The notes beneath the pieces were generated by a model. The model saw only the letters and a program-made list of their open reading frames with translations, made no database searches and was not told where the DNA came from. From Acidobacteriaceae bacterium (lineage in GTDB: Bacteria; Acidobacteriota; Terriglobia; Terriglobales; Acidobacteriaceae): a DNA stretch of 64,000 nucleotides. Position numbers and translations under genes: made by a program. The DNA is taken from NCBI GenBank assembly GCA_003131585.1, contig PKVW01000024.1:41073-105072 (forward strand). The letters are read 5' to 3'. Numbering within the stretch: position 1 is the first letter of the stretch; every line of letters begins with the position of its first letter. Positions 20,753-64,000 of the stretch are shown piece after piece.

Positions 20753-20982
20753 ACCCAGAAAGCCTCAACCCGGAGCATATCGAACTGCGCCGCAAGCTCT
20801 ACCACAACCACGGCGCACCCATCGTGTCGCGGCTGGCCCGCGCGCTTCCTCTCGCTACGCGCCGCGAACGGCGGAAACTGCTGCGACAAATTCAGAAACA
20901 AACGCCGCAAGCCGCGCCCGTGGCGGCTTCCACGCCAGTTGCATCATCCACTGAGCAAAATGCTGCGCAAATTCCCGCATAA
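20749..20982 (+). CDS. Hypothetical protein
   Basis: MNPESLNPEHIELRRKLYHNHGAPIVSRLARALPLATRRERRKLLRQIQ. Confidence 0.4.
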   Translation: MNPESLNPEHIELRRKLYHNHGAPIVSRLARALPLATRRERRKLLRQIQKQTPQAAPVAASTPVASSTEQNAAQIPA

Positions 20983-22750
20983 CTTCCGCTTGGCGGTTTT
21001 GGCCCTCTGCGGGCTTCTAACCCCGCAAATCTGCGCTCAGGTCGTCCCCGGTCCCGGATCCTCAGCCGGCCCTTCGAGTGTCATCTTGGGGCAGGTGCAG
21101 ACGGCGACCGGCGGCCCGGTCAACTACGGCGCGTTAACTTTCAGTCTCAGCCAGCCCGCCATCATCGCGGGAACCGCGACCATCGCCACCGAGCAAAGCG
21201 CCTGCTACACCAGCGCCCAGGGCAACGTGGTGGGGGTTCCTGACGCCCTTGCGAGTCCCGTCCTTTCCCTCGGCTACAGCAGCGCCGGGACGCTTGCGGC
21301 CGGCACCTACTACGTCGTTCTCTACTACATCGGAGCCGGCGGAGTGGGCGCGGTCTCGCCGGAGGCCAAGATCAACCTCAGCGGCATGGGCACGGTCTAC
21401 GTCAATGCGCCCGGGGTGCAGCCGAATTCCGCCACGGGTTACGGAGTGGCCATCAGCACCACCTCGGGCGGGGAAACCATCCAAGGCACGGTGACCGGCT
21501 GGACGCAGTACGCGCAAAGCGTGCCGCTCGTGACCGGAGCGACGCCGCAAGCCCTCAATACTAGCTTCTGCTCGGTTTATCTCAGCGACCAGCTCGTACC
21601 CACCGGAACTTATTACACCGTTAACTTGGTCAACAAGAACGGCAGCCAAATCTCCGGCTTCCCGCAGACTTGGTGTATGTATGGCGGGGCTGCGGCCACG
21701 ATCAACATCTCAAACGGTGCGCCCACCGGGAACTGTTCGACCAGTGGCGTCTTCTACCCGACTCCGATTTTCACCAACCCCCCGAACACTTTGGTGCAGT
21801 CGATCGCAAGCGGGCTGAATATCGGCGGGACACTGAATGTGCAGGGCAACGCCACCTTCAACGGCAACGCCAACTTCCTCGGGGGCACCGGCTTTTTCCT
21901 TTTCATTAATTCTGGTTCCATTGTCTCTACCGCCGCGAACCCAGCCGCCAGCGGCTTCCTGCGGCTGGCGCAAACCGATCAACTCAACTGGCGGAACGTC
22001 GCCCACAGCGCGGATGAAGGCTTCAGCGTGGATTTCTCCGACCGGCTGAATATCTCCCATGCCGGGGGCGTGGTGTTGACGGGAGCGAGTCCCAATCTTT
22101 TGTTCGGCGGCGTCACTAGCGGTTATACCGGTTTGTTTGGTTCCGGAACTCAGTTAAACCTCAAACTGGCCGACCAGAGCGCGCCTGCAACCTTGGGACT
22201 TGGAGCACTGTCTTTCACGGAAACCTCGGCTCCCCCTCCTTTCGTCGCGACCGATATCATCTACGGATCGCCCAATGATTTCATGTTGCATCAAGGGCTG
22301 CACGCGTTCTCGGGGGTGCAGCAGATCCCGGTCACGATTGCCGTCAGTCCCACTTACACGAACGCGACCACATCGTTCTCAAACATTCCTCCGGTGTTCT
22401 TTTACGCTGCCGCCTCGAACACCTACACGCTGACGTGTCAAATCACGTGGCAGGCATCTGCAGCAACGGCTGGCCCTCAGTTCAAGGTGCTAGTGCCCGC
22501 GGGCGCGACCGTCAGTCTCAACATGACCAGCGCAGTCACGGCGACCACAGGAACCTGGAAGTCCAGCGTCGGGACTGGTTCTCAGTCGGTCGCTAACACG
22601 GGCACGGTTACCGCCGCGACCGACTTTCCAGCCATTGTCACTGCCGGTGTGACGACGTCCACTACCGCTGGCAGCGTAGTGCTGCAAGCCGCCGCGAATG
22701 GTGCGGGCACTCTCACCGCCGAGCGCAACAGTTTTTGCGTCTATCAGTGA
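20960..22750 (+). CDS. Fiber/adhesin-like protein with N-terminal signal peptide
   Basis: MLRKFPHNFRLAVLALCGLLTPQICAQ signal; Gly/Thr/Ser-rich beta-type repeats. Confidence 0.6.
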   Translation: MLRKFPHNFRLAVLALCGLLTPQICAQVVPGPGSSAGPSSVILGQVQTATGGPVNYGALTFSLSQPAIIAGTATIATEQSACYTSAQGNVVGVPDALASPVLSLGYSSAGTLAAGTYYVVLYYIGAGGVGAVSPEAKINLSGMGTVYVNAPGVQPNSATGYGVAISTTSGGETIQGTVTGWTQYAQSVPLVTGATPQALNTSFCSVYLSDQLVPTGTYYTVNLVNKNGSQISGFPQTWCMYGGAAATINISNGAPTGNCSTSGVFYPTPIFTNPPNTLVQSIASGLNIGGTLNVQGNATFNGNANFLGGTGFFLFINSGSIVSTAANPAASGFLRLAQTDQLNWRNVAHSADEGFSVDFSDRLNISHAGGVVLTGASPNLLFGGVTSGYTGLFGSGTQLNLKLADQSAPATLGLGALSFTETSAPPPFVATDIIYGSPNDFMLHQGLHAFSGVQQIPVTIAVSPTYTNATTSFSNIPPVFFYAAASNTYTLTCQITWQASAATAGPQFKVLVPAGATVSLNMTSAVTATTGTWKSSVGTGSQSVANTGTVTAATDFPAIVTAGVTTSTTAGSVVLQAAANGAGTLTAERNSFCVYQ

Positions 22751-22862: not shown

Positions 22863-24521
22863 ATGAAACCACGTCGGATCGTAACCTCACTGCTGGCGCT
22901 CGTCATCGTACTCTCGACGGCTCTGGCATTCTCGCAAAGCGGCGGCGGCTACAACGCGAACTCGAGCGCCGGAAACTACGGGCTAAGCGCGTGGGCCATC
23001 GACAACCAGCGCGTCGCCAGCCAGTTCAACTACAACATCCCTTCCACCTTCAATTCGGGAATGGGCGGGACTTACACCTTCCCGGCGGAAGCCTGCTTCG
23101 AGGCGGTCCATGCCGGAGTGCGCGGCGTCCAGCCGTTCAACGCCAATGCCAGCGTCAACATCATCGATGCAGTTTCGGCGAACACGGAAACCGTGACTGA
23201 GACGGCGCCGACCCTCACCAGCTCAACCTGCACCATCAACATGAGCCCGGCGAACTCGCACTACAGCTTCAATCTGCGTTCCGGCACGTGCGGACTGCGC
23301 GAGGCGTTGAACGATCTCGGCGGAAAAGCGGGCACGGTGATCGTTGACCAAAAGTTCTATGACGATGGCTGCACCGCTGCGACCATCACGACGGCGGCCA
23401 CTGTGGGCGGCACGCTGCAAGCCAACCAGCTCATTAACGATATTTCAGGGACTGGCCCAGCGTGGTATAACCTGCAGCCCTCGACGCTCACGGCTTTGGC
23501 CGTACCGACGGCCAGCGCGAACCTGACTTGCGCCGCGACCGCAGGCTTGGTTTGTCAGTCGGCCACCACCGGCGGCACCTGGCCGAACAGCGCGGAGGTT
23601 GCAGGCGACATCTACATCGACGCGCTCGGCGGTTGGAGTGTGGCTTCCGTTACTCACACCCTGACTCCCAGCGCTTCCGGCACCAACGTGCTGCAGTACA
23701 ACTCGCCAGCAGCTTCGACCGGCGCCTATGGGTGGCTCCCTTGGGGAGGGTTGACCTACAACAGCGCCGCCTATGTCCTGCCAGTAACGGCTTCAAACTG
23801 CACGCTCTCGACCACCTTCACCGCCTATCCGGTTTGCGCGATTGGATCCGCGGCCACCATGTTGGGCCCGGTGACTACGACCTCGCTGATCCCCCAATCT
23901 GGCGGAATCGCGGCGGCCTACAATCCCAACCCGCAAAGCCACACCACCTTTGCCTATCGACCGAGCCAGCGGCCAGGCTATGGGTTTCAGTTGAACTACG
24001 GGCCGTTTACGGCGACTCCCGCCTTGACTGCTGGGCAGCTTGGCGTAGTAGGAACCGTGCAGTTGCCCACTGGCTTCCTGCAGAACCTGGGAATCGGCGG
24101 CACCGTCCGCTTCTCCTTCGACGTGACGGCCACACCTTCGACGGGCGGCACCGCTACCGGCATCGACGTGGAAATCGGCGACATCACCGACTTCTCTACC
24201 GGAACGCCTTTGATCATCTGCAAACTTGCCGGCGACATCACCGCCACTGGCACGGCTGCGATCAAGTACCACGAGGAATGCGACTGGACCGTAAACGCCA
24301 TTGGCACAACCGGCACCATCATGCCGGGCGGCTTTGGCATTGAGCAGGTGAGCGCTCAGGGGACCATCGGCAACCCCTACATCGAAGGCTCGACCGCAGC
24401 CATCACCGCGGACGTGCTCGATCAGGACGCTGTGTTCTTCGTATTCCTGCAGACCAGCGGCGCTGAAAGCACGACCCCACCGCAAATGCAGGATCTGAAA
24501 ATCGAAGTGCTCAACAACTAG
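22863..24521 (+). CDS. Fiber/adhesin-like protein with signal peptide
   Basis: MKPRRIVTSLLALVIVLSTALAFSQ signal; beta-rich Gly/Thr composition. Confidence 0.6.
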   Translation: MKPRRIVTSLLALVIVLSTALAFSQSGGGYNANSSAGNYGLSAWAIDNQRVASQFNYNIPSTFNSGMGGTYTFPAEACFEAVHAGVRGVQPFNANASVNIIDAVSANTETVTETAPTLTSSTCTINMSPANSHYSFNLRSGTCGLREALNDLGGKAGTVIVDQKFYDDGCTAATITTAATVGGTLQANQLINDISGTGPAWYNLQPSTLTALAVPTASANLTCAATAGLVCQSATTGGTWPNSAEVAGDIYIDALGGWSVASVTHTLTPSASGTNVLQYNSPAASTGAYGWLPWGGLTYNSAAYVLPVTASNCTLSTTFTAYPVCAIGSAATMLGPVTTTSLIPQSGGIAAAYNPNPQSHTTFAYRPSQRPGYGFQLNYGPFTATPALTAGQLGVVGTVQLPTGFLQNLGIGGTVRFSFDVTATPSTGGTATGIDVEIGDITDFSTGTPLIICKLAGDITATGTAAIKYHEECDWTVNAIGTTGTIMPGGFGIEQVSAQGTIGNPYIEGSTAAITADVLDQDAVFFVFLQTSGAESTTPPQMQDLKIEVLNN

Positions 24522-25608: not shown

Positions 25609-26943
25609 ATGAGACCCAGGCTCCTTATTGCCGTCTTCCTGTTGCTCACGCTGGCTGCCTTCAGCCAGTCCAGTAATGGCTCCCGCGGCTCGATTACCGT
25701 ACAAAACAACGGCAGCGCCGTAGGCACAGCCAGCGGCGGAGTGACGCTCAATCTGGTCTCGGGATGCACCGCCACGCAGAGTGGCAGTATTTTCGCCCTC
25801 ACCTGTACCGGCGCGGGTTCTGGTAGCAACGTGACCGTAGCCGGAGGCAGCAATCTGGCGACGGCGAATTTCAACGCCGCTACTCCGGCCGCGCAATCGA
25901 ACTTTCTGAATTGCACTTTCCAGACCTCGACCACGAATGTCAGTCTGGAATGCCCCAGTGGGACCAGCAGCTCGACGTTCGCTCTGGGCAATGTCCTTGC
26001 GAATTTAAGCAGCGATTGCACGGCGACGTCCGCGGGCGTCATCACCTGCACCAAGATCGGGGGCACGACTCCGGGCGGGACGTGTACGAATCAGGCCGTG
26101 ACCGCAGTGAGCGCTTCGGCGGTTCCCACCTGCACGACAATCACCTCGGCGTATGTGGATTCGTCGATTGCGCCCGTGGCTTCGCCTGGACTGACTGGCA
26201 CCCCGACCGCGCCGACCGCGGCGGCGAACACTAACACGACGCAAGTCGCAACCACGGCATTTGTTCTCGGGCAAACATTACCGCAGAATCTCTACGCCGC
26301 CGATACCGGGGCGGTCAACGCCTACGTCGTTACCTTAGCGCCGCCCATGACCGGCCCAGCCACCGGGAGCTATGGCTGCTTCAAGGCTTCCGCTGCAAGC
26401 ACGACCACAAACCCCACCGTGAACTTTAGCGGGTTGGGTGCGAAAACGATTGTTCGGTTCGCTGGCGGCCTTATCGCTCCGGGAGACATCGGGACCAACG
26501 AACCCGCCTGCATGATTTATGACGGGGCGAATTTCGACCTACTGAATCCGCAGGCCATTACCGGCACCGGAAGAATCCCCTTGCAAACCGCCCCGACATT
26601 CCTAACCTCAATCACAACTCCGGCGCTCTTAACGACTACAAATTGTTCCAGCAGCGCCTCTCCCGCCGTGTGTGCGGCGGCGGCAGCAGGTAGCGTGGCC
26701 CTGCCAACCGGAACCAATCCGACATTGGTAGTCAACACGACCGCAGTCACGGCCAACAGTCAGATCCTGTTAAGCGTGGATGAGAGTCTAGGAACGAAAT
26801 TAAGCGTCACCTGTAACACCACACTTTCCACGCTCCTGAATCCAGTGGTCACGGCGCGAACCGGGGGGACGTCTTTCACCTTCACCATCGGCGCGGTCAT
26901 TGCGAGCAATCCGGCCTGCGTGAGCTACTTCATCGTCAACTAA
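25609..26943 (+). CDS. Fiber/adhesin-like protein with signal peptide
   Basis: MRPRLLIAVFLLLTLAAFSQ signal; Thr/Ala/Gly-rich beta repeats. Confidence 0.6.
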   Translation: MRPRLLIAVFLLLTLAAFSQSSNGSRGSITVQNNGSAVGTASGGVTLNLVSGCTATQSGSIFALTCTGAGSGSNVTVAGGSNLATANFNAATPAAQSNFLNCTFQTSTTNVSLECPSGTSSSTFALGNVLANLSSDCTATSAGVITCTKIGGTTPGGTCTNQAVTAVSASAVPTCTTITSAYVDSSIAPVASPGLTGTPTAPTAAANTNTTQVATTAFVLGQTLPQNLYAADTGAVNAYVVTLAPPMTGPATGSYGCFKASAASTTTNPTVNFSGLGAKTIVRFAGGLIAPGDIGTNEPACMIYDGANFDLLNPQAITGTGRIPLQTAPTFLTSITTPALLTTTNCSSSASPAVCAAAAAGSVALPTGTNPTLVVNTTAVTANSQILLSVDESLGTKLSVTCNTTLSTLLNPVVTARTGGTSFTFTIGAVIASNPACVSYFIVN

Positions 26944-34195: not shown

Positions 34196-34755
34196 ACGAA
34201 ACCGCAGAACGCACCAAGACATCCGTCGAGCTGGCGCTGGAGAAAACCTCCGACCTTCCAGCCGCCGAGCAACCGTTGGCGAAAAACCTTGCCTTCCCGC
34301 ACGCTTTCGAGCGCAAGCGCGTCACTGAAGAAGAAGCCCTCGCCATCACCCGCGAAATCTTCGAGCCGGGGACCAACGCCCTGCGCGAAGGCACCACGTT
34401 CATTGCCATCGGAGACCGTTTGCTGGTCCGCCGAGTTCCCGAGGCCGAATACTCGAAGCATGGAATCTTCCTGCGCGAGACCGACCGCGACCAGCCGAAC
34501 GCCGGAGTCGTCCTCAGTTGCGGACAGGGGCGGATTACCGAAGAAGGCCGCTTGATTCCCTTGCGCATCCCCGTCGGGTGCGTCGTCCTGTTCGGCAAGT
34601 ATGCCGGCTCCGAAGCTCCGCTGGGCGCGATCAACGACGAGCCACAACTGATTCTGCACGAAGATGAAGTGTTGGGGATCGTCGCCACGAAAGAACAAGC
34701 GGCCATTATAGAGGCGAACGCGAAGCCGCCGGTTACCGCGGCGCAGGTGGGGTGA
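34192..34755 (+). CDS. GroES-like co-chaperonin with N-terminal extension
   Basis: IGDRLLVRRVPEAEYSKHGIFLRETDRDQPNAGVVLSCGQGRITEEGRLIPLRIPVGCVVLFGKYAGSEAPL...QLILHEDEVLGIV matches the GroES layout. Confidence 0.88.
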   Translation: MNETAERTKTSVELALEKTSDLPAAEQPLAKNLAFPHAFERKRVTEEEALAITREIFEPGTNALREGTTFIAIGDRLLVRRVPEAEYSKHGIFLRETDRDQPNAGVVLSCGQGRITEEGRLIPLRIPVGCVVLFGKYAGSEAPLGAINDEPQLILHEDEVLGIVATKEQAAIIEANAKPPVTAAQVG

Positions 34756-52300: not shown

Positions 52301-54418
52301 GATGAAAACGGAGACTGGTCGGTGGTGGACCGCGACGGCAACGAAGTGGAGACCTTCGGCAAATCGCAAAAAGACGCACAGGAATACGCCGAAGAAGTGG
52401 GCGAAGTGCTCGACCATCTGAAGCGCACCTACCCCGAGCACAAGCGCGAACCGCTGATGGGACGCACCGACGAAGGCCCCTCGCTGGGCGCATCTTACGG
52501 TGGAATCAAAGCCCCCCGCCCCGACAAGAAACAGCGCATCGCCACCGCACAATACTTCTACGAGCACGGCGCGAAGGACTTCTCCGGCTACGTCAAGAGC
52601 TTCACCCAGGCCTACCACGCCGCGCTGAACCAGAAGATTTACGACTCGCTCACCGACGAAGCAACGAAGTGGAAGGAAGGCACCGCCCAGCCGCCGCAGA
52701 TCGAGTACCGGGGCCAGACCTACTACTCTCCCGACGTCGCCAAGTCGATGAAGCTGGCGAAGCCGGAGAACCGCCCCAAGAAGATTCTCGAATACCGCGC
52801 TTACGACCCCGCCAAAGACGACAAGGTGATGATCCGGGATTTCGAGAACGGCTGGAGCACGACGACCACCGGCAGGCCGGGGATCAGCGCCCTGGACCGC
52901 TACCTCGCGCCAAAAGACGTGGTGGACGCTTTAGAGCACTACGACATGACGCGGGGAGCGGAAGAGGGCAACTCCATCCGGCGCTTCTTCCAGGATCAGA
53001 TCGTGGGCTTGTTTGGCCCCAACATCCACGTCTTGAACATCATGCGGCGATTGGCTACGACGGTGGGAGCCGGAGCCTGGGACCCGCGCGTATGGCCCTA
53101 CTACCAGAGGCTTTTCTTCTCGAAGGAACTGCGGGAGCGCATGGCCGAAGGGCTGGCCGACGACGCCATCGACACGCTCTCGAAGTGGGGCACCTACACC
53201 AACACCAAAGATATTGGCAGCCTGCACGACTACGTTCTCGGCAATATGGACCCGAGGAATTGGGCGCGCTGGACCATCGGCAAGTTCTCGAAAGGCGTTT
53301 TGTTCGATCCGAAGTTCCTCAGAGGCTTCGGCGGGCTCGACCAAAAAGCCCGTGTGCTGGCCTACGACTTCCTGCATGCCCGCGCCGGGATGAACGAAGA
53401 GGAAGCCGCCAAGAACGTCGAGGACGGCTTCGGCAACTACAACAAAGCCAACTGGACCGAGCGCATGAAACGTTGGGGGCGGGCACTTCTCTTCCCCGGC
53501 TGGGACTTCTCCAGCTTGAAATGGTTCCTGCGTCACCCCATCAAGACGGCGCTCCCTGCGCTGGTTGTTATGGGCGCAAACCTCGCGCTCAACAAAGCGG
53601 GCAAGAACCGCGACTCCGACAAATACGACTACAGCTATCTGCACTACGGCGACCGCAAGTACCGCACGGGGTTAATCACCGAGCCGATGGCGCTGCATCT
53701 GGTCGAACCTATCCTTGCGGCCGGACGAGCCGCACTCGAAGGCGGCGACACGCGAGACATTGCAGGTGCGGCAGGACAAGGCATGCTGCGCGGCGGCGGC
53801 GGACTGGCGGGCGATCTGCGTCCGGATATCGGCGTTGCTACTGAACTACTCTCAAACCGTCAGTACTTAGGCGGAGAAAAAGAAATCTGGCGACCGGAAG
53901 ATGCGAACATTCCCGGTACGGTGCTGCCTACGCGTAAGCTAGAAAAGATGCTGGCCTTCTCCGTGGTCAAAGCCCTGCCCGCCGTGAGCCGCTTCCTTGA
54001 TACGAGTTTCGAGAGCCTAGACCGGGCCACTGTCGCGGGCAGCGTCATCGGCGTCACGAATTACAAATCCGGCGCGGAAGAAAGATTAAAAGCGAACGAA
54101 GCGAAGGCGATGGGATATTCACAGACCTTGAGTACGCTGGCGGAGCGCGAACCGGACGCGGCTGAGAGATTCGTCCAGGAACCGGCGAAGGCTCCGTATC
54201 TGATGTTCAACAAGGACCTTGCGGAGCTCGGGAAAGACCTCAAGAGTATCGACACCGAAATGGAGCGGGTGAAGATCGCCGAGATCCCGTATGCTGACCG
54301 GAAGCGGGCGCTCGAAGACCTCAGAACCTCACGCTCGCAACTCTTGCAATCGGCGGACGCGCTCGATGAGGAACTCACGACCGCGAAGCTGCAGATGAAG
54401 AAGGCGGCGGGTCAGTGA
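46358..54418 (+). CDS. Giant polyvalent ejection-type protein (2686 aa)
   Basis: Gly-rich hydrophobic segment near N-terminus; FtsK-gamma-like wHTH, SH3-like, 2H-like and ParB-like segments; T7 gp16 position. Confidence 0.8.
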   Translation: MSSYALSEVEEAPSYSADQVEEAPTTQQSSAALDQVARPQSPAPVAPVSPRLSLGPTPPAPRPVAEGLITEQEERRARMPLTIQPTSGSLENPHPEQVVATPRPNRTLAAPAQPNVNVEEPGAVPVPVGPKFTNPGKATPQEAAYDLSFSDPLLRPYRGAAELYHGVKDLPPDPRKPGTYQEQAERGTTEILRGATDVATPVMIAGAVAQPELALLAGAGAEAGSYGAGKLADAVKASPDTKALLQEVGGIAGGFAGGFAHGGLRSAASPEDALTDLLWKRGYIRDAQRNPVSFASEAEARYAAREILRQNPPGIIDSLRQKGAYKRAGAELPQVSPAEAARRASATAEFNARARAATSHADDVVADISKLTRPQLAEYMAKSASPDKPLGDPDVAKAMYVADREAAQTPAPAPPEAPVEAPRPSPAPAVAQPPGVSPQAFTYENAKAAVEDFLDQHGRVSPTVLQRNLKLGYENAKAVLNRMVGEGVLQTDSKGIVFTRPTETQAAAIPEFRADEVEEAAPAVESRGETAPAVSNAPAAALAAARPTGPSGGTESVARPSPAPTPQSVAPASAPEGEKESSFQKGDSVTLPDGRSGEVKYVSPQGKSPVVTVTVDGKTERFVGAKEVQGLKAVESANAGADNAPSEPESVAAQTNQAPASPAANGERVTETTPAEKYKFGSTQANIPDESPAAKALSTARARISKEDLAGDGIDVGGNHVTVRYGIKGEDVEGVKKYLASLAPFEASLGPTETFPPSEHSDGAAVIHAPIVAPELHQINAELEKHGDFSEPNFDYKPHATVAYVKPEKASRYVGMSVTSGQKFPVSEIAITDRQGNQQVVKLEGKGETTAAAPALPRDLAGAKPRYGYQDKLFQLQFEDPRDLALYTVAQSTPNKAHGRYMEWLRGQFPKLSDEDIVRGGRSIREQIKPLAREGNPAAGPLVIPSRQGEPASKPASETQAPQAETIAAKGETKPVREFAAHEVEEAPAAKKSLAPEPTKPERERQTLGLPPEPGRVGEMNIRDLKVAPNKFQYKLSTDAEGVGTLLKETKVWNPDLAGMVSVWRDLSDGKTYVVNGHHRYELAKRLGVKTLVVRHIVAPTANAARAIGAEQNIADGRGTALDAAKFFRDSAITPADLKEKGISLGEATVAKGVALANLSEPIFNQVVQGDLTQGRAVVIGEATSDPAEQKAVLDLVERKERSGKKVSDDTLSELIRLVKGSGQTTETTADLFGTQQINRSLALEKAEISAHIKQQLAKDKKLFGFVSKGDRASELERGGNKIDVEKSKQLSTGAAQAEEVYNRLSARGGPIANILDESARQLADGDNAASVKSEAYSRIRAEVSKTLGGGEGSGTERHEGTPEPPEGVTHSPKPDDSVDLFSGAQPVFHEPLPLSARTAKDINFDLIETRAGIAPYLRVNDAAAKAISHSLGHAFLGVNIDKASVGRASAALRSAASSAEANKVDAKAIRQLRGLADALDEALDRDPNAGVNLVRQGPREIGTAHEELIHSAQRRAGKGNIGFGVPWQESLKMPAFAELGANSIVPQLRAAGLPAPASTIVAEGIVDIMRGEAALEGVSITDALEAAKVYFESALAHYGIEHLNELQAIQDYANDTERETNVTHHPEVLAIRRAGEAALARTIARGTGKALGRTGATVQSEAQLGTEERNRAPGAKDSGPPDDTGKADKGPSSTTKGPAYSTQPIGLTDEELEDWSKSRGFRVEPAGEQLDIFGGNQSVMRVFRAGRGGKEQKGLVYQSQLDQLSQPKPEPTEPFALTGGETREQQPTLFGAGDLGEIVGNPKAERGIQLPSQQRDRGTSLFKPEHRKEDRESLLTGESGTLTPSLSAAKAVYAKFINRIIDRNLDLGDKYKRVAEHDPAIATMLKEKDNAPRYFHAKAESNVEQVAKGLNESQVRLAAMMADSDSREFLEENHPEQFQEAQDDPAVMDAVKQFKQYQDELAAIRISLGWHVRRDLSTLEDENGDWSVVDRDGNEVETFGKSQKDAQEYAEEVGEVLDHLKRTYPEHKREPLMGRTDEGPSLGASYGGIKAPRPDKKQRIATAQYFYEHGAKDFSGYVKSFTQAYHAALNQKIYDSLTDEATKWKEGTAQPPQIEYRGQTYYSPDVAKSMKLAKPENRPKKILEYRAYDPAKDDKVMIRDFENGWSTTTTGRPGISALDRYLAPKDVVDALEHYDMTRGAEEGNSIRRFFQDQIVGLFGPNIHVLNIMRRLATTVGAGAWDPRVWPYYQRLFFSKELRERMAEGLADDAIDTLSKWGTYTNTKDIGSLHDYVLGNMDPRNWARWTIGKFSKGVLFDPKFLRGFGGLDQKARVLAYDFLHARAGMNEEEAAKNVEDGFGNYNKANWTERMKRWGRALLFPGWDFSSLKWFLRHPIKTALPALVVMGANLALNKAGKNRDSDKYDYSYLHYGDRKYRTGLITEPMALHLVEPILAAGRAALEGGDTRDIAGAAGQGMLRGGGGLAGDLRPDIGVATELLSNRQYLGGEKEIWRPEDANIPGTVLPTRKLEKMLAFSVVKALPAVSRFLDTSFESLDRATVAGSVIGVTNYKSGAEERLKANEAKAMGYSQTLSTLAEREPDAAERFVQEPAKAPYLMFNKDLAELGKDLKSIDTEMERVKIAEIPYADRKRALEDLRTSRSQLLQSADALDEELTTAKLQMKKAAGQ
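51222..51497 (+). CDS. Candidate overprinted ORF (91 aa) in +1 frame of the giant gene
   Basis: MSPITQKFWPSGEPGKRLSPEQLLEGLEKHWDELEQQYKAKPSSELKNEIVHLVQRIAAHRTTQGKPIKDLLPRLKAL; main frame is linker-like here. Confidence 0.4.
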   Translation: MSPITQKFWPSGEPGKRLSPEQLLEGLEKHWDELEQQYKAKPSSELKNEIVHLVQRIAAHRTTQGKPIKDLLPRLKALPTPPSPSASPTKS

Positions 54419-54870: not shown

Positions 54871-56250
54871 ATGAGCGCTTTTCCTCAACTCGATCCCTTC
54901 GCGCAAGCCCACGAAGACGGAAAGAAGGCCGTGGCCACCTTTCTGCCGAGCCTTGTCACGCCGAAGATGCCCCCGCAAGCACCGCCGAAAGCCTTGCCCC
55001 ACAGCGATCTTCGCGATGCCGTCCGAGCCATGAGTTTAGCGAATCACGTCGAGCAGATGTCGAGCCGCGTCGCCAACGGATTGCCGCCCAGCCCGCCCCA
55101 GCCCACGCCGGAAGAAACGTTCGGCAACCAGCTCGACGCCGTGCATACCCGCGCCATCGCCAGCGCCATTGCCGCGCATCCAGAAACCCAGAGAGCGCGC
55201 TTGATTTCCGAAGCCCACGACTCGGCCTCGAAGTGGATCATGTCGCACAACGGCAAGGTGATCGTTCACGGCAAGGTGGAGCTTGCCCACGATCCCAAAT
55301 CGGCGCAGACTCTAGCAGCCAAGATCGTCAACGGCACAGTGGAAGACCATGACGCAAGAGAAGAAGCGAAAGCAGAGTCGCTCGATAATCCTCGGGGCAC
55401 CCAAGGGGATGATCGTCAATCCGTTGGCAATGCCGGGGGGAACCGTACAGAAAGTCGGCAGCCGATACCTCCTGCTGCCACGGCACAAGAGCGTTCACCA
55501 ACCGCTGTTCGTCCCGGCGCTTCAGTCGGAACGTCTGATCCGCAAAGCGGCCGCGTCGTCACCCACTCCTCCGCTGATCTGGCACGGGCTCAAGCGACAG
55601 CTACCGCCCAAGCCCCGAAATTCCGCCGTCTGCTCGAAGCCGGAACCACAGGGGTAAAGGGGGCGAGAGTCGCCGGAGTCCGTTCGAAGAAAGAAGCCAG
55701 CCGCGCGCGGCAAAAAGCGCAGACCGAAGGCAAAGCCCCGAACACCCAGACCGATCTCCTCGCCGGGCGCATCGCCGTCGATTCCCCGGAAGCGAAAGAT
55801 CAAGTCGTTCAAAACCTGAAAGACCAGGCTCCGGTGATTGACGAATCCGACCGTTTCCAAAACGGCGATCCCGACTACGGATTCCGCTCTCACACCCTGC
55901 AGACACAAGTCTCTCCCGAGACCAGCGCGGAAGTGCAGGTCATTCCCCAAGACATCGACGACGTGGACGACACGACGCACCAGACCTATGAGCAGGGCCG
56001 CGAAGCGGAAGCGACGGGAAACGACGAGACCGCAGAGCAAGCGATGGCCGACAACAAATCGGCGCACGACGATGCGATGGACAAGTTCAACGCGCGCAAC
56101 GAATCCCGCAACCAACCGGGCAAGCAGGGCCGTTCCCAGAAGATCAAAGACATTCTCGCCGCCGCCGGAGTGAAGGGCGCGGGTGAGCCGATCAAACTCG
56201 GAGGACACTTCTTCCTCCCCATTCAGGACGATGCCGAAGAAGCCAGCTAA
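54871..56250 (+). CDS. Late protein with RelA/SpoT-like nucleotidyltransferase domain
   Basis: RSKKEASRARQKAQTEG...DLLAGRIAVDSPEAKDQVVQNL...GDPDYGFRSHTLQTQV...AEVQVIPQDI...THQTYEQGRE. Confidence 0.7.
   Translation: MSAFPQLDPFAQAHEDGKKAVATFLPSLVTPKMPPQAPPKALPHSDLRDAVRAMSLANHVEQMSSRVANGLPPSPPQPTPEETFGNQLDAVHTRAIASAIAAHPETQRARLISEAHDSASKWIMSHNGKVIVHGKVELAHDPKSAQTLAAKIVNGTVEDHDAREEAKAESLDNPRGTQGDDRQSVGNAGGNRTESRQPIPPAATAQERSPTAVRPGASVGTSDPQSGRVVTHSSADLARAQATATAQAPKFRRLLEAGTTGVKGARVAGVRSKKEASRARQKAQTEGKAPNTQTDLLAGRIAVDSPEAKDQVVQNLKDQAPVIDESDRFQNGDPDYGFRSHTLQTQVSPETSAEVQVIPQDIDDVDDTTHQTYEQGREAEATGNDETAEQAMADNKSAHDDAMDKFNARNESRNQPGKQGRSQKIKDILAAAGVKGAGEPIKLGGHFFLPIQDDAEEAS
55349..55657 (+). CDS. 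Candidate overprinted ORF (102 aa) in +1 frame
   Basis: MTQEKKRKQSRSIILGAPKGMIVNPLAMPGGTVQKVGSRYLLLPRHKSVHQPLFVPAL; main frame is low-complexity linker. Confidence 0.35.
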   Translation: MTQEKKRKQSRSIILGAPKGMIVNPLAMPGGTVQKVGSRYLLLPRHKSVHQPLFVPALQSERLIRKAAASSPTPPLIWHGLKRQLPPKPRNSAVCSKPEPQG

Positions 56251-56785
56251 GAAGTCTCAGCCGAAGAAGGCAGGCCCCAAGAAAAAGACTGGCCCCAAGG
56301 GTCCGCGCAAACAGCCGACCTGGACGCCGAAGGAACTGGCCTTCGTTGAGGCGTTCAAAGGCAATCAAAGCAAAGCCGCCAAAATCGCCTACCCGAAATC
56401 GAACAACCCTTCCGTGCTGGGCTCGGAGTTGATGGCGAAGCCGCACATCCGCGAAGCCTGCGAGAAGAAGCTGGCCGCGATGATCGACGAATCGGGCAAA
56501 CGCCTGGCGCGGGTGGTGGATATTGGGAGAAACGAAATCATCATGTTGAACGCCGACATCGCCCGAAAGGGCGACAGCGACTCAGCTCGCGTGGCGGCCT
56601 TGCGGGAACTGAAGGATATTTTCGGCCTCAGCGCCAAAAATGATCGAGACACAGACATGTTCGCCGGTTGGAGCGAAGAGGAACTTCGGGAGTTCGCCGA
56701 CACGGGATTTGTTCCGAAGTCAGTTGCAGCCCGAGTTTTATCGGGCCACGGCGCGCCTCCGGCTCAGCCAGATTCAGCGAAGTAA
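56231..56785 (+). CDS. Terminase small subunit with basic N-terminal tail
   Basis: MPKKPAKKSQPKKAGPKKKTGPKGPRKQPTWTPKELAFVEAFKGNQSKAAKIAYPKSNNPSVLGSELMAKPHIREACEKKL. Confidence 0.8.
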   Translation: MPKKPAKKSQPKKAGPKKKTGPKGPRKQPTWTPKELAFVEAFKGNQSKAAKIAYPKSNNPSVLGSELMAKPHIREACEKKLAAMIDESGKRLARVVDIGRNEIIMLNADIARKGDSDSARVAALRELKDIFGLSAKNDRDTDMFAGWSEEELREFADTGFVPKSVAARVLSGHGAPPAQPDSAK

Positions 56786-57440
56786 GCCTTCGCAAGAACT
56801 GGCGGAACGCGCTAGGGAAGCCACGCGTGACGCCTACGCTTGGGTCACTCAATACACCAAGACTTACAACGAGCAGTGGGTCAAACAAGGCAGATCGAGT
56901 CCTTACGAATCCTTCCCCTCGGCGGCGGAGCGCCCCGATTTTCCGGCCATCTTCGAACTGCTGGCTTCGAGCGAGCCGGTTTTATGGTTCGAGAAATCCC
57001 GCACTATGATGGAGTCCTGGGCCATCGTCGCCTATCTCACGATCAATGCGATGACCGTCGCCATGCGCGGCGTGGTGCTGCAGTGCCAGAAGGAAGAGAA
57101 AGCCCGTCAGCTCATCAAGTACGTCAAATGTTTGTATTCGCAGCAGCCGCAGTGGCTGCAGGGTGCTTACCCGTTATCGAAGCCGCTGCACTCGCAATCC
57201 GATCTCTCTTGCCAGTGGGCGGCTGGAGGCTATGTCGTCGGCATTCCCGGCGGAGCCGACCAGATGCGCTCCTATCACCCCTGGGCAGTGATGAGCGACG
57301 AGAGTTCGTTCCAGCCGGATGCGGGCGAGTGCTACAACGAATATCTTGCGGCGGGCCCCGAGAAAATCATTTTCAACTCCTCGGCCGGTCCCGGCTGGTT
57401 TGCCGACGCGCGTCACGACATCGTGGTGAATTGTGAGTAG
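56640..57440 (+). CDS. Terminase large subunit, ATPase half (true start probably further downstream)
   Basis: LWFEKSRTMMESWAIVAYL deviant Walker A; WAVMSDESSF Walker B; IIFNSSAGPGWF motif III. Confidence 0.7.
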   Translation: MIETQTCSPVGAKRNFGSSPTRDLFRSQLQPEFYRATARLRLSQIQRSKPSQELAERAREATRDAYAWVTQYTKTYNEQWVKQGRSSPYESFPSAAERPDFPAIFELLASSEPVLWFEKSRTMMESWAIVAYLTINAMTVAMRGVVLQCQKEEKARQLIKYVKCLYSQQPQWLQGAYPLSKPLHSQSDLSCQWAAGGYVVGIPGGADQMRSYHPWAVMSDESSFQPDAGECYNEYLAAGPEKIIFNSSAGPGWFADARHDIVVNCE

Positions 57441-58509
57441 CAAAGTCGCCGCAGCTCTGGAGCGGACCAAGAAGATGCCGCCGCAGACGCAGGTGGAGAT
57501 TGTGCGCGGGATTACGTTGCGCCGCACCAAGGGCGGCATCCCGGTGATTCGTCATCACTACTCCGCCGATCCCGCGCGCGATCCGGACATTAACCCGGAG
57601 TGGAAGCTGCAGGAGCGGCGCAAATATACCTCGCAGGCGTCATGGGATCGCGAGCAGGAAATTATAGACAACGCGGGCGGCGGCGAGCTGGTGTTGGCCG
57701 ACACCCTGGTCACGCACTGGAAGAAAATCGTCATCGAAGACCCGCGCTGGCAGCCCGATCCGAAGTGGAGAGTGGAAGCAGGGTTTGACCACGGACGCGC
57801 GAATCCCACGTCGATGGAACGGGTCTACTGCGACTACGAAGGCAACTTGTTTTTCTGCGGCGAATATTACCAGCCGGGGCGGGAAATCTGGGAGCACGCC
57901 ATTACGCTGAAACAGATGGCCGACATCCGCCGCATCTCGGTTTGTTATGCCGACCCATCGATCTTCCCGTTGAACGCCCAAGCCAACGTACCCACGCGAA
58001 AAGACGAGCGGGCGAAATCGCTGAACGAGATTTACGTAGAGAACGGCATCGAGATTTTTTCTCCCTTTCACGGCGACCACTCCGACATCAGCTTCGGAGA
58101 ACGTGTGTTGATGCACTGGCGCGACCTCGAACACCGGCAGCCGACATTGAAAATCGTGTGTCGCAACTTCTCCGAGAGTCCGCAGCCCGGCCTGCACAAC
58201 TGGGATTGCCCGAACCTGCTGTGGGAGATGATGCGGATGCGGCGGGTGAAGCTGACGGCACAGCAACTCCTGAGCCGGAACACCTCCGAAGCCATTGTCC
58301 AGAAAGACAACCACGCACTCGATGCCGGTAAGTATCTAGTCATGTCGCACCCCGAGCCAGCCTACAAGAGCGCCAAAGAGACGGCCGCCGAAGCCGTCGC
58401 GCCACTGGTGGAACAAGGCGATTTGACCTCGGCCAACATTCGCTACGCCCAGACGCTTTCCCGTCTCGACCAATCAAAACGCAAGCCGATCAGGATCGGC
58501 CGCCACTAA
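57433..58509 (+). CDS. Terminase large subunit, nuclease half
   Basis: WRVEAGFDHGRANPTSMERVYCDYEGNLFFCGEYY...DNHALDAGKYLVMS RNase-H-like nuclease layout; GTG start overlaps previous stop. Confidence 0.75.
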   Translation: MSSKVAAALERTKKMPPQTQVEIVRGITLRRTKGGIPVIRHHYSADPARDPDINPEWKLQERRKYTSQASWDREQEIIDNAGGGELVLADTLVTHWKKIVIEDPRWQPDPKWRVEAGFDHGRANPTSMERVYCDYEGNLFFCGEYYQPGREIWEHAITLKQMADIRRISVCYADPSIFPLNAQANVPTRKDERAKSLNEIYVENGIEIFSPFHGDHSDISFGERVLMHWRDLEHRQPTLKIVCRNFSESPQPGLHNWDCPNLLWEMMRMRRVKLTAQQLLSRNTSEAIVQKDNHALDAGKYLVMSHPEPAYKSAKETAAEAVAPLVEQGDLTSANIRYAQTLSRLDQSKRKPIRIGRH

Positions 58510-58539
58510 CTCAACCCACAAACTTAAACAGTGAATCCC

Positions 58540-61500
58540 ATGAAACGCATTCTCTTGCTCGTGGCGCTGGCGCTCGCGTGGTCCTCTCCTCTCGTGGCGC
58601 AGGTGCAATCTTTTCAGGGCGTGGCCGAACTCAACCCAGGAGGGGGGCTGCTGCACGTCGTCCCGTTCGCCCCGGTGGTCTTTTGCAACGCCCCCGCCAC
58701 GGGCGGAACGCCTTGCACTAATCTCGCCACCACCTACAACTCGATGACCGGTAGCCAGGCGTGCGCTCCAGGCCAGGGCACGATTCCGACGACGAACATT
58801 TGCTCCTCAGTTGCCGACGTGAACGGCAACTTCGGGGTCTACGCGGCCCCGGGGAATTACACCTACTACTTTCAGGCCAATGGCGTGTGGCGCGGCCCCT
58901 ACAACGCCTCGTTGGGCGGCAGCGGCGCCGGCAACCCTAACCTGACCTTCTCGGGAACGAATTCCACCTTCTCCGGCCCAGTCAACCTGAACGGCGGCCC
59001 CCTGACGGTCTACGAGCCTACCACGTCCGTAATCGGCTTCGACCCCGACCCCTTCTGCGCTTACGTGTTTCCCGAAGGCTTTGGCCTTGACCAGATGTGC
59101 GATCTCAACGGGACGCTGTTCTGGAATCCCTTTGGCCTTACCGGGCAGGGGCAGGCGGTGCTTACGGCACGCTACCAGCCAGCGAACCCCGCGAATGGGC
59201 AGTTCTACGTGTGGAACAATGGAATCGGCCACGTCGATCTGGAACTCCCGCCGAACACCCTCATCGACCCCATTACGGGAGCGCTTCAGGCTACGTTCGT
59301 CGGCCCGACCGCCAACAACAACCCGGCCTGCAATGTGAATGGGGTCACCTACTCGACTCTGGCGGGCTGCGTCGGATATTTCGCAACCAACAATAGCGGC
59401 GGGCGCATCGACCACAACCTCGGGGCTGAAGACATTACCGTGAACCCGTTTCAGCTCGGGATGGGCGCGGAAGTCAAACTGGGCAAGGGAATTCACAGTG
59501 GAGGGGCGAACCATCCCTGTGGCACGGCGAACTTGAATTGTTATGTGGCGGAAGTGCCCCTGATTCTCCCCAACGGAACGCGGGTACGAGGATCCGGCTT
59601 GGTGCAGCAAGAACACGACCCTTCCGAAGGCACGATGATCACCTACGGGACCAGCTTTCCCTCCCCGCTCGGGTCACCTGTGGTGCCCACGCCCACGCAA
59701 AGCGCCTCGGGGGGAAGTTTATCGGACGGCACGGTGTATTTCGTCACCAGCGAAGTCAACAACCTGCAAACCAACTCCTCCTATACGGCCGCTCAAGGCA
59801 CACCCGGAGTCGGGCTGCACAGTTCGGAGTTCTCAATCACCCTCAATGGCGGAGGTTCGTCGGAATCCATTACCGTTCCCGCGCCCACAGTGCTTGGCAG
59901 CGGCAGCTTTGTGGCTTCGGAATACTACGTCTACGCCACTTCCGGATTTACCGGGACGGTGACCACTTCGGCGGGAGTGCTTGGAGCCTGTCCCGCTAAC
60001 TGTGTGCAGGTCACCGCGGGGAGCAACTTCTCCCAAAACGAAGATGTCAGCCTGATTGCGGGGACTCCGATTGTCATCAATTCCGTCACTTATTACTTAT
60101 TACAGATTTATAGCCCCACGATTGCCAGCCTGATGAGTTCCCCGGGCACGCAATCCGGCGTGACCTACACCAGTTCGCTTGCGGCCTGGCAGCAAGTGTT
60201 GATTGGAACGAACGGCACCTGCGCTTCCAGCCGCATCGGGCTGATGGACCCCACCGGCTGCCTGCTGACGGCGGCAACCACGGTGACAACGCTTGCGGGG
60301 ACGGGCGAGCCGCCGCTGCCGGTCGATGTCAGCAATCCGCTGATCGTTATCGGCGACCAGAACGGAACCAAACTTGAATTCTCCGTTTCGCTCGAGGACG
60401 TTTCGCTCAACCTGACCAACGGAAGCTCGGCGACCACGGCGGTGCCCACGGCGAACGCCCCGGCGACGGTGATTTATGTGAACTCGGCGCAAGAAGGCAG
60501 CTACATGAAGACGGTGGATATCACCGGAGCCAGCCAGCAATCTTATGCCGTATTTTCCAACGATGCCCCTAATTTCGCCTTTACCGACTCGATCACCGGC
60601 GGCGGACCCAATGGCTATTCCGGGACGCTGAACTGCACCTCGGCGACGCCAGCGGTCTGCACGGTTGCGAGCGGCAATCCGGTCGGCAACTGGTGGGGCG
60701 CAACTATCAAGATTACGGGGTCTTCCTGCGCCTCTAGTATTTGCCAGGTGCAAAGCGTGAACAGCGCGACTTCGATCACTCTGACCACGGCCACAGGATC
60801 TCTGACCGGAGCGGCCTATTGCATGGGGACCACCGGAGCGTGCTCCGCCTCAACCACCGGAGGCAATTTCATCGACTATGTGATTGACGGCACCTTGAAT
60901 CCGAGCGCGATCGCAAACGGAACCCTGCGAGAATTCCGCAACGTGTCGGTGTCTTCCAAAGGTGGAGTGGGGGTGTTCAGCGAGGCGCTGGTGCGAGGAC
61001 AGAAGGCGGCGCCGGTATTTACCGACAGCCACTTTGAGCAGAACGCATCGAGCGGCAACGATTGCGTCACCACCACGGCCAAGGCCAGCGCCATCCTGAT
61101 CGGAGACAAACACCAGTGCTATACCGCGGTACTGCACATGACGGCGACGGCTTCGGCCACGAGCGGGGCAGTTTTGAACGCGGAAAACATCGGCACCGGA
61201 TTCCTCACCGAAAACGACAACATCGCCGCCGGGACGGGCAACTGCCTGGGCACGAATTCCGATTGCAACAATCCCGGCGCGAACGTGTTTGGAACGACGA
61301 TCAATGGGGCACACATGGGCGGATCGACCTCAATCTCCGGGGCCGTGACGCTCGGCACAGCCCCGGTGGGTTGCACGCCCCTGACCAGCACGCTATGCGG
61401 CGTGGGCAGCATCGGTAGTGGAGTCTCGACCAATACCGACCTCAACGGCGAACTTACGATGTCGGGCGGAACAAAATCGTACACCTTCCTGAATACCAAC

Positions 61501-61644
61501 TACGCGGTGCACCCGACCTGCGTGGGGTCGGATGAAACTGCCATTGCCGCGGTCGAAGTCACCTACACCGCTGGAACCAGCGTCACCTTCACCACCAGCG
61601 GAGCAACCGATGTGGTGAGCTATTCCTGCGACATTCGAAAATGA
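58540..61644 (+). CDS. Large fiber/adhesin-like protein with signal peptide
   Basis: MKRILLLVALALAWSSPLVAQ signal; beta-rich repeats. Confidence 0.6.
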   Translation: MKRILLLVALALAWSSPLVAQVQSFQGVAELNPGGGLLHVVPFAPVVFCNAPATGGTPCTNLATTYNSMTGSQACAPGQGTIPTTNICSSVADVNGNFGVYAAPGNYTYYFQANGVWRGPYNASLGGSGAGNPNLTFSGTNSTFSGPVNLNGGPLTVYEPTTSVIGFDPDPFCAYVFPEGFGLDQMCDLNGTLFWNPFGLTGQGQAVLTARYQPANPANGQFYVWNNGIGHVDLELPPNTLIDPITGALQATFVGPTANNNPACNVNGVTYSTLAGCVGYFATNNSGGRIDHNLGAEDITVNPFQLGMGAEVKLGKGIHSGGANHPCGTANLNCYVAEVPLILPNGTRVRGSGLVQQEHDPSEGTMITYGTSFPSPLGSPVVPTPTQSASGGSLSDGTVYFVTSEVNNLQTNSSYTAAQGTPGVGLHSSEFSITLNGGGSSESITVPAPTVLGSGSFVASEYYVYATSGFTGTVTTSAGVLGACPANCVQVTAGSNFSQNEDVSLIAGTPIVINSVTYYLLQIYSPTIASLMSSPGTQSGVTYTSSLAAWQQVLIGTNGTCASSRIGLMDPTGCLLTAATTVTTLAGTGEPPLPVDVSNPLIVIGDQNGTKLEFSVSLEDVSLNLTNGSSATTAVPTANAPATVIYVNSAQEGSYMKTVDITGASQQSYAVFSNDAPNFAFTDSITGGGPNGYSGTLNCTSATPAVCTVASGNPVGNWWGATIKITGSSCASSICQVQSVNSATSITLTTATGSLTGAAYCMGTTGACSASTTGGNFIDYVIDGTLNPSAIANGTLREFRNVSVSSKGGVGVFSEALVRGQKAAPVFTDSHFEQNASSGNDCVTTTAKASAILIGDKHQCYTAVLHMTATASATSGAVLNAENIGTGFLTENDNIAAGTGNCLGTNSDCNNPGANVFGTTINGAHMGGSTSISGAVTLGTAPVGCTPLTSTLCGVGSIGSGVSTNTDLNGELTMSGGTKSYTFLNTNYAVHPTCVGSDETAIAAVEVTYTAGTSVTFTTSGATDVVSYSCDIRK

Positions 61645-63281
61645 AGCGAGTCTTCCTATTCGCGTTGCTGGCGTCGTCGCTGCCCCTGCCCGCATGGGCC
61701 GCCGGCGGAAGTTGTAACGCCATCCCGGTTCCCACGGGAATCACAAGCTGCTTTTACGTCTCGACCTCGGGCGCGGACACGAACGCCGGCACTTCGGAGG
61801 CTGCGGCCTTCGCCCATATTCCGGGACAGAGCGGGTGCGCGAGCACTTGCGCCTCCACTACTCCAACCGCAGGTGAGGCGTTCGTACTAAAGGGCGGCGA
61901 CTCCTGGACGCTTTCCGCGAAAATTGCATTCGCGTTCAGCGGCACCAGCTCGAATACTATCGGGCTTGGCGCTTACGACTCCACCTGGGGGTCAGGCCGC
62001 GCCATTCTTACGGGCGGCGGAACTTTCCCCGGCGCAACCAACCCGGCAGAGTTTCTAGATCTCGTAACCGGGACGCAGAACTATATCGACGTGGGCTTTG
62101 TCGAATTTACCGGCCTGAATTGGAGCGCGGCGCTCACAAACCAGGTGTCCTATATCGCGTTCGGCAATGCCAGTGGGATCGTCATCCACGACAACTACTG
62201 CCACGGCTGGACGCATTCGGCGGCGATTGCCGAGAATAATAATGCCGCTTGCTTCGCAGGTTCGGGCACGGCAAGTACGGCCTCGAACCTGTTCTACAAC
62301 AACGTCTGCGACGGCGCCGATACCGATGAGCAAAGCATGATGTGCATCGGCGGCGGAGGTTTTGGCGACGTCTACCAGAACTACATTGCGAACCTCGAAT
62401 ACGCGCTGAATGGCAGCATCCGGCTATTCCACGACAACACTTTGGTGAACGTTGGCGCGGTGGTATACACCGGCGGCGTTTCCCACACCGGAGAGATGAT
62501 CTCAAACATCGACGCCACGGACACGTCGATTCTCTATAACAACGTGGCCTCGCTGAACGGCAATGGCGGGGTGACCTTCTGGCAGACGCCGAACCTAACG
62601 AAGACCGCCTACGCCTTCAACAACGTGCTGATCAATAGCGGCACTGGAGTGGCCACGCCGATGCTGATGTGCGGCGAGTATTTCAACGCTAGTTCGCTCG
62701 GCGGCGGAACTTGTAACTGGTTCAATAACACGGAAGAATGCGGCCCGGACTCCGGCCCCACCAACCAATGCAACAAGATCGGCACCGGACAGCCCGGAGT
62801 GCTGATTGCCGGAGTCACCGAAACCAACTTTCACACCATCTACAACAGCGGCGGCGGACTCAACTACGTCTCGCCGGAATGCGCGAGCGCCTGCCCGGTC
62901 ACGACCGCGAACATCGTGAATCAAACCCTGGCTACGGCGAACGCCCAAGGATACACGCTGGGTGAAACCTATTCTTTTTCTCCGCAATTTCTCGGCAATG
63001 CGACCGTGGGCGTTGGGGCAAACCAAGCCAGCGTTTGCACCGCAATCACCGCGCTCAATGCGGCGGCCGGCGCAGCTTGCGGAAAAGATACGACGTATGG
63101 GGTCACCTACAACGCCACACCACACACCGTCTCTTATCCGGCTCGGGTTGCGGTAGCTCGCCCGGTCGTCGGGGCTTGGGATGTAGGGGCGTACCAGGTG
63201 ACTCCCGTGGCGGCGGGCGGTGGAGCGGGCGTGGTGATGTCGCCTGGACTCACACTTCCCAGGGGCTTGGTGATTCCATGA
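61641..63281 (+). CDS. Beta-helix (pectate-lyase-like) adhesin with signal peptide
   Basis: MKRVFLFALLASSLPLPAWA signal; IVIHDNYCHGW, NLFYNNVCDGAD, SIRLFHDNTLVNVG, TSILYNNVASLNGNG repeats. Confidence 0.7.
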   Translation: MKRVFLFALLASSLPLPAWAAGGSCNAIPVPTGITSCFYVSTSGADTNAGTSEAAAFAHIPGQSGCASTCASTTPTAGEAFVLKGGDSWTLSAKIAFAFSGTSSNTIGLGAYDSTWGSGRAILTGGGTFPGATNPAEFLDLVTGTQNYIDVGFVEFTGLNWSAALTNQVSYIAFGNASGIVIHDNYCHGWTHSAAIAENNNAACFAGSGTASTASNLFYNNVCDGADTDEQSMMCIGGGGFGDVYQNYIANLEYALNGSIRLFHDNTLVNVGAVVYTGGVSHTGEMISNIDATDTSILYNNVASLNGNGGVTFWQTPNLTKTAYAFNNVLINSGTGVATPMLMCGEYFNASSLGGGTCNWFNNTEECGPDSGPTNQCNKIGTGQPGVLIAGVTETNFHTIYNSGGGLNYVSPECASACPVTTANIVNQTLATANAQGYTLGETYSFSPQFLGNATVGVGANQASVCTAITALNAAAGAACGKDTTYGVTYNATPHTVSYPARVAVARPVVGAWDVGAYQVTPVAAGGGAGVVMSPGLTLPRGLVIP

Positions 63282-64000
63282 AAAAAGCATTCCTACTTTC
63301 CCTCGCAGTTTTCGCGCTCTCGACAAGCGCCTTGGGCCAGTCGCTCCCCGCCGTCAGCTTCGGCGGACCTGCGACCCCGACCACCGGGATTTTCGTCAAT
63401 TCGGCGACCAGTCCGCCAGGGCTTACCGTGCAATTTATCGCGCAGGCTGTCTTGGGCGGGCCGCTGGCAAACCCCATCACCAATCAGTGCGTGTGGGCCA
63501 GTTCAAATACTGGCGTGGCTACGATCAACGCGAACGGCCTGGCGACGGCGGTGAGTGCTGGTTCCGCGAATATCACTTGCAGTTCCGGCGGGCTGGTCGG
63601 GACCGGCGCATTCGTAGTGGGCCCTGGGGGGGGGATTGCCATCACCGCCCCGAACTGCGGCACCCCGCCTTGCCCTCTGGCGGTCGGGACCAATGGCATT
63701 GCGTACTCCTATACCCTTACAGCCCTGGGCGGAGTTTTGCCTTACACTTGGACGGTTTCGACCGGATCATTACCGGGCTGGGCGTCGCTGAATGCCGGGA
63801 CCGGGGCCATTACCGGCACGGCGGCGACCGGAACCACGAATTTCTCGGTCACCGTGACCGACTCAACCCCCGTCACGCCCCTGACGGCGACCCTGGCGGT
63901 CACTTTGACGGTGGGTTCGAGCGGCCCCACCTGCGGACCACCGACCTATAGCTGCACTCCGACCATTTCTACGCAGCCGGGAGCCTTTGCGCCCGTCGTG
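63278..64000 (+). CDS. Ig-like repeat surface/fiber protein with signal peptide (truncated by window end)
   Basis: MKKAFLLSLAVFALSTSALGQ signal; Big2-like CVWASSNTGVATINANGLATAVSAGSANITC; He_PIG-like GVLPYTWTVSTGSLPGWASLNAGTGAITGTA. Confidence 0.7.
   Translation, partial: MKKAFLLSLAVFALSTSALGQSLPAVSFGGPATPTTGIFVNSATSPPGLTVQFIAQAVLGGPLANPITNQCVWASSNTGVATINANGLATAVSAGSANITCSSGGLVGTGAFVVGPGGGIAITAPNCGTPPCPLAVGTNGIAYSYTLTALGGVLPYTWTVSTGSLPGWASLNAGTGAITGTAATGTTNFSVTVTDSTPVTPLTATLAVTLTVGSSGPTCGPPTYSCTPTISTQPGAFAPVV

Follow-up and report, generated by a model that had tools for sequence, protein, structure and literature searches.

Predicted Sec signal peptides on candidate fibre and spike proteins of a divergent, putatively podovirus-like Acidobacteriota prophage

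The window, the 64,000-nt stretch of DNA analysed here (G000:C29:41073-105072, within a genome of 3.93 Mb), contains three consecutive genes near its right end that encode proteins with Sec-type signal peptides (SPs). As judged from sequence comparison, export of these putative fibre/spike proteins is well supported. We favour the view, which we give slightly less than an even chance, that the cluster serves a divergent podovirus-like prophage as its fibre/spike module, the products of which would be exported, fold in the periplasm and join tails around lysis.

Results

Setting and gene run of the phage region

The phage-like region sits between host-type genes on both sides. On the left we recognised by eye what we take to be a truB-like gene near 143 and ABC-transporter genes up to 5429, and on the right, likewise by eye, presumably a miaB-like gene at 70554-72149. 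IMG/VR contains an identical sequence with its right end trimmed at 68284 (window numbering). This record (IMGVR_UViG_3300050016_000385) was considered as a free contig proving excision and rejected; because its end is the end of a predicted gene, it was taken as a trimmed copy and not as an independent sequence. Profile matches are absent for most structural genes, which indicates that the phage is very divergent.

The run starts with the terminase small subunit (TerS), followed by the large subunit (TerL) in two ORFs, three fibre genes, the endolysin and a holin-like ORF of 60 aa (Table 1). With TerS, the TerL pieces and an endolysin present, the label "virion module" that the earlier note had given to the region is sound. 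From TerL through the endolysin the genes are spaced by 30, -4, -4 and 4 nt, and hence the genes are likely to share one transcript and to be translationally coupled. Genes 1 and 2 as well as genes 2 and 3 of the right cluster overlap by the four nucleotides ATGA, in agreement with the overlaps and coupling originally proposed. The earlier note had also suggested looking beyond 64 kb for further members of the cluster; there, gene 3 extends for another 1.7 kb, is completed at 65701 and is followed by the endolysin after a 4-nt gap. Gene 3 is available in full as L002:7350-9773 and has a homologue at L038:16547-19360.

The two TerL ORFs (56640-58509) encode 266 and 358 aa, and the first had no profile match of its own. 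The split is kept with differing spacing in three relatives (L007, L008 and L011; the gap in L008 is 21 nt). In the distant relative G119, TerL is one ORF of 735-781 aa. The 54-kb contig G119:C45 carries three TerL-like genes (L012, L015 and L016) at 18.5, 22.9 and 50.5 kb.

Table 1. Terminase, endolysin and exported-protein genes of the phage region (window coordinates).
Feature	Position	Strand	Basis
Left-cluster exported protein	20960..22750	+	SP MLRKFPHNFRLAVLALCGLLTPQICA, predicted cleavage before Q; N-terminus conserved in G302, G303, G304
Left-cluster exported protein	22863..24521	+	SP; family of 8 across related phages, four invariant Cys
Left-cluster exported tail-fibre protein	25609..26943	+	PHROG tail fiber 4.4e-8; SP; 14 Cys
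TerS, start of packaging-fibre-lysis run	56183..56785	+	Pfam Terminase_2 4.8e-7; PHROG terminase small subunit 3.4e-8
TerL first ORF, split, putative ATPase half	56640..57440	+	Position; two-ORF layout in L007, L008, L011
TerL second ORF, putative nuclease half	57433..58509	+	Weak PHROG TerL match, 0.0026
Exported fibre 1	58540..61644	+	1034 aa from ATG 58540; SP; conserved ~110-aa N-terminal domain, variable C-terminus
Exported beta-helix-like protein 2	61641..63281	+	546 aa; SP; relatives in other phages also with SP
Exported Ig-like protein 3 (Big_2 + He_PIG)	63278..65701 (window part to 64000)	+	807 aa; SP
Glucosaminidase endolysin	65706-66191		PF01832 1e-18

The three genes of the right cluster

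The Sec-type signal peptides first noticed at 58540, 61641 and 63278 were borne out in all three genes, the N-termini having the textbook form. The ORF of fibre 1 spans 58531-61644 and opens with GTG, ATG 58540 being the better start. Its predicted signal, MKRILLLVALALAWSSPLVA, would be cleaved before Q and leave a mature protein with 28 Cys. For gene 2 the predicted signal is MKRVFLFALLASSLPLPAWA with cleavage before AGG (16 Cys in the mature protein), and for gene 3 it is MKKAFLLSLAVFALSTSALG with cleavage before Q (24 Cys).

Regarding the repeat types claimed for the cluster, gene 3 alone had Pfam matches, to He_PIG (9e-12) and Big_2 (1e-6). For gene 2, the beta-helix gained no profile support; it was called neither by Pfam, PHROGs or NCBIfam nor by a PDB sequence search, and the assignment is based on visual inspection and on alignment with its phage relatives. 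The structural model of gene 2 (pLDDT 33) was too poor to call a trimeric right-handed beta-helix, and the model of the left-cluster protein 22863 reached a pLDDT of 56. Fold searches with these two poor models gave lectin-like and unnamed phage matches of low TM-score, which were not used. No PHROG tail fibre or tail spike match was obtained for the three genes, with gene 3 searched in full, and neither Pfam nor NCBIfam detected an anchor domain (PEP-CTERM, LPXTG, T9SS or autotransporter) in their products.

Signal peptides appear to be used

Signal peptides were called with a home-made rule, not SignalP, that scores a positive n-region, an uncharged hydrophobic core and small residues at positions -3 and -1; its background was 2 of 96 genes upstream of the terminase in relatives. 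By this rule the fibre proteins have the Sec hallmarks (n-region, hydrophobic core and AxA-like site). Within the phage part of the window it flagged only 20960, 22863, 25609, 58540, 61641 and 63278, together with a 118-aa minus-strand gene at 36062, and none of the head, tail-tube or lysis genes.

Three independent lines indicate that these signals are used. Seven proteins of the QVSINT family average 46% identity in the signal peptide and 85% in the next 150 residues, conservation beginning at the predicted cleavage site. Mature SP proteins have a median Cys content of 1.81%, compared to 0.87% in non-SP proteins (p=3e-11), and 37 of 40 have an even number of Cys (p=2e-8) versus 69 of 118 non-SP proteins. 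Eleven proteins contain an odd number of Cys within the signal peptide, and every one turns even after its removal. Homologues are not independent, and therefore families were also counted, using a hand-curated list from which calls judged false were left out: 21 of 22 had mostly even Cys numbers (p=1e-5). Changes within families go in steps of two (8, 10, 12; 6, 10, 18), and the five proteins found later are all even. The four invariant Cys of the 22863 family persist at 26-77% identity. As read from these sequences, the pattern implies that the signal peptides are cleaved and that the Cys pair in disulfides outside the cytoplasm. The host encodes three DsbA-family and two VKOR-family proteins.

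Exported genes recur in related phages

Alignment with the second TerL ORF as anchor identified 40 related viral loci in IMG/VR. Terminase relatives were also found in Acidobacteriota genomes, namely Candidatus Sulfotelmatobacter and Acidobacteriaceae MAGs. Where a long co-oriented gene follows TerL, the first such gene is an SP fibre in 10 of 10 loci, the window included (the other nine are L007, L008, L023, L026, L029, L030, L032, L033 and L038). The TerL relatives L025, L027, L035-L048 and others have different downstream modules and were counted neither for nor against. In L008, TerL is followed by three SP genes, the second with Laminin_G_3 and the third with a tailspike/pectate-lyase domain; L008:13458, syntenic with the right cluster, matches PHROG tail spike (5.6e-7) and Pect-lyase_RHGA_epim. 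L038 likewise has three SP genes, followed by small genes and by a gene homologous to the ORF at 66747 (window numbering).

The conserved 904-aa tail protein (39228-41942) was matched in 12 of 13 longer related records, and at least one large SP protein is encoded in 12 of 13 related viral records. Families common to the records are those of the first fibre after TerL (12 members), of 22863 (8) and of 20960 (4). Similarity is concentrated at the N-termini: fibre 1 has only residues ~26-135 in common with its counterpart in L023, and QVSINT proteins agree over ~240 residues and then diverge. The systematic export strategy envisaged in the earlier note thus gains weight, since SP fibres lie on both flanks, the families of both flanks recur with signal peptides in related phages, and Cys parity points to real cleavage and disulfide bonding.

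Gene 2 also has relatives on contigs of other phages. L124 contains a pair of SP genes with an ATGA overlap and, after them, a lysozyme-like gene; the relative in L132 is without a signal peptide. The contigs L127-L130 belong to a different type of phage; there, an ATGA overlap links an SP beta-helix-like gene to the following gene (479 aa), which appears terminase-like by eye. SP spikes may, by these similarities, reach beyond the lineage of the window phage.

Cultured phages with and without exported fibres

Tunturi 1 and 2 are podoviruses isolated on Tunturiibacter that form clear plaques (PMC11924767). Signal peptides were found on their gp12, gp13, gp14 (tail spike/pectin lyase), gp16 and gp17 (virion structural), nearly all of these genes overlapping and lying between the tail protein gene gp11 and the endolysin. 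None of the portal, capsid and tail genes tested carries a signal peptide. The Beta_helix match of gp17 is below its cut-off. The text of the Tunturi paper does not discuss the signal peptides of the gp12-gp17 genes (PMC11924767). No protein-level match was found between Tunturi 1/2 and the window queries tested, and a search of IMG/VR gave no relatives of gp11.

Tunturi 3 and 4, on the same host genus, have no signal peptides on their fibres, and the host therefore does not impose a requirement for them. A universal feature of Acidobacteriota phages, considered at the outset, is rejected on the same ground. T7 gp17, P22 gp9 and KP34 gp49 and gp57 also lack signal peptides. Since the lytic Tunturi 1 and 2 share the arrangement of the window phage, the trait is not specific to lysogens. 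It is widespread, not universal and not tied to lysogeny. Host-surface remodelling, one of two roles considered in the earlier note, is consequently weakened in its lysogen-limited form.

Discussion

Proposed export followed by joining of virions

The SP proteins fit receptor-binding proteins, given their conserved N-termini and variable C-termini, their Ig-like, lectin-like and pectate-lyase domains, and the tail fibre and tail spike matches of 25609 and L008:13458. In the mechanism we propose, glycan-binding fibres and spikes would be made late as Sec precursors, in one run with the terminase and lysis genes. Export and trimming would fall to the host translocon and signal peptidase, with disulfides made in the periplasm by host enzymes of the DsbA/VKOR type. 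Once holin and endolysin open the envelope, finished spikes would meet the released particles and bind to the tail, much as P22 tailspikes can be attached to particles in vitro. Any spikes in surplus may, in addition, loosen surface polysaccharide. Computed directly were the signal peptides and their conservation, the even Cys counts once the signals are removed, the common orientation with the terminase and lysis genes, and the occurrence in lytic isolates; we infer late expression, actual folding in the periplasm and attachment to virions. The annotated spike of Tunturi 1/2 itself bears a signal peptide, and together with the receptor-binding features this leads us to favour joining of virions. 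Against it stand the number of exported proteins, up to six per phage and more than a podovirus tail would obviously need, and the separation of tail assembly from the periplasm until lysis. With greater reserve, we suggest two-compartment virions for a group of mostly podovirus-like Acidobacteriota phages, with heads and tails built in the cytoplasm and Sec-exported, disulfide-locked fibres and spikes added at lysis.

The proteins might instead be exported and never enter the virion, acting as free or surface-held adhesins or by modifying polysaccharide, and so altering the host envelope, blocking superinfection or loosening the matrix for progeny exit. We regard this main rival as a possible, somewhat improbable account. 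Big_2, He_PIG, Laminin_G_3 and beta-helix domains are common among bacterial surface proteins, several exported proteins are made per phage, and the run terminates in lysis genes. Moreover, the Pantoea protein WceF, a bacterial glycan enzyme of tailspike fold, bears an export (Tat) signal (PMC7949094). Against such a purely free role, the lytic Tunturi 1/2 must adsorb and their annotated tail spike has a signal peptide; in addition, the window proteins yielded no surface-anchor domain, and a conserved N-terminus with a variable C-terminus is the virion receptor-binding pattern. Lysogenic conversion as the sole role is weakened by the lytic Tunturi phages.

A dual role, in which the same exported proteins would attach to virions at lysis and, before or after release, also act free, seems improbable to us. 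In known phages, free tailspikes have depolymerase activity, which counts in its favour, and nothing here separates virion from free function. It is very doubtful that the signal peptides do nothing or are hydrophobic N-termini that arose by chance, with folding and assembly of the fibres taking place in the cytoplasm, the known assembly site of tailed phages, as in T7 and P22. The calls come from a simple rule, and the L132 homologue of gene 2 lacks a signal; against this, the signals recur across relatives, have diverged next to conserved mature parts, and leave even Cys counts only once removed. Slightly less probable still is a host adhesin island adjoining or inside the prophage: domain types are common to these and bacterial surface proteins, but the position between terminase and endolysin and the same order in viral contigs (synteny in L008, L023 and L038) exclude an island outside the phage, the case that the earlier note had named as refuting. 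The 1037-aa fibre 1 product was unmatched in 298 other genomes of the order, in phage isolate records and in plasmids.

Relation to known systems

By the usual description, tailed phages assemble wholly in the cytoplasm and their fibres are reduced and poor in cysteine. Consistently exported, disulfide-paired fibres and spikes throughout a lineage would break this rule, would explain how phages use disulfide-rich adhesive proteins, and would hint at a final assembly step linked to lysis. P22 gp9, KP34 gp57 and T7 gp17 resemble the window proteins in being large and beta-rich, with modular variable C-termini and genes near structural or lysis genes. They differ in having no signal peptide and 0.3-1.3% Cys, whereas the window-type proteins have predicted cleavable Sec signals and more Cys (median 1.8%), in even numbers. 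Filamentous phages likewise send structural proteins, their coat proteins, through the host export machinery for use outside the cytoplasm, but they assemble at the membrane without lysis and belong to an unrelated virus class. An overlapping operon of SP spikes and fibres is also present in the lytic Acidobacteriota podoviruses Tunturi 1/2.

Lys44 of fOg44 is a late tailed-phage protein that is Sec-exported with cleavage of its signal peptide; it is a lysis enzyme, neither fibre nor spike (PMC6116005). WceF of Pantoea stewartii is a trimeric beta-helix glycan enzyme of tailspike fold with an export signal, but it is encoded by a bacterial gene, has a Tat and not a Sec signal, and has its role in the bacterium's own exopolysaccharide (PMC7949094). 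Fibres, spikes and the use of Sec by tailed phages for lysis proteins are thus known; systematic export of fibres and spikes, as predicted here, would be new. We know of no tailed phage with demonstrated export of its receptor-binding proteins, and no earlier report of Sec signals on tailed-phage fibres was found in the literature searched, which omits most subscription journals. The cultured lytic Tunturi 1 and 2 make the question immediately testable. In viral annotation, filters that use signal peptides to strip host genes would throw out genuine phage fibres.

Additional features of the phage region

Just before the left SP cluster, a short serine recombinase of 213 aa (19534-20175) matches integrase/invertase PHROGs and might serve in inversion or integration. 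A GroES-like co-chaperonin gene (34192-34755; PHROG 3188, 2.8e-14) adjoins the capsid genes, and L054 and L059 contain ORFs that are GroEL-like by eye. A 416-aa virion-module protein (41965-43215) ends in a C-terminal Hint-like domain (CFSGNTRVITRDGIKKISDV...; weak Pfam Vint match, 0.004), suggesting self-processing of a tail protein. A single ORF at 46358-54418 encodes 2686 aa, of which residues 1011-1325 match PHROG 21, labelled portal protein (7e-63); with further weak RNA-ligase-like and ParB-like matches, its product looks like a giant multidomain protein.
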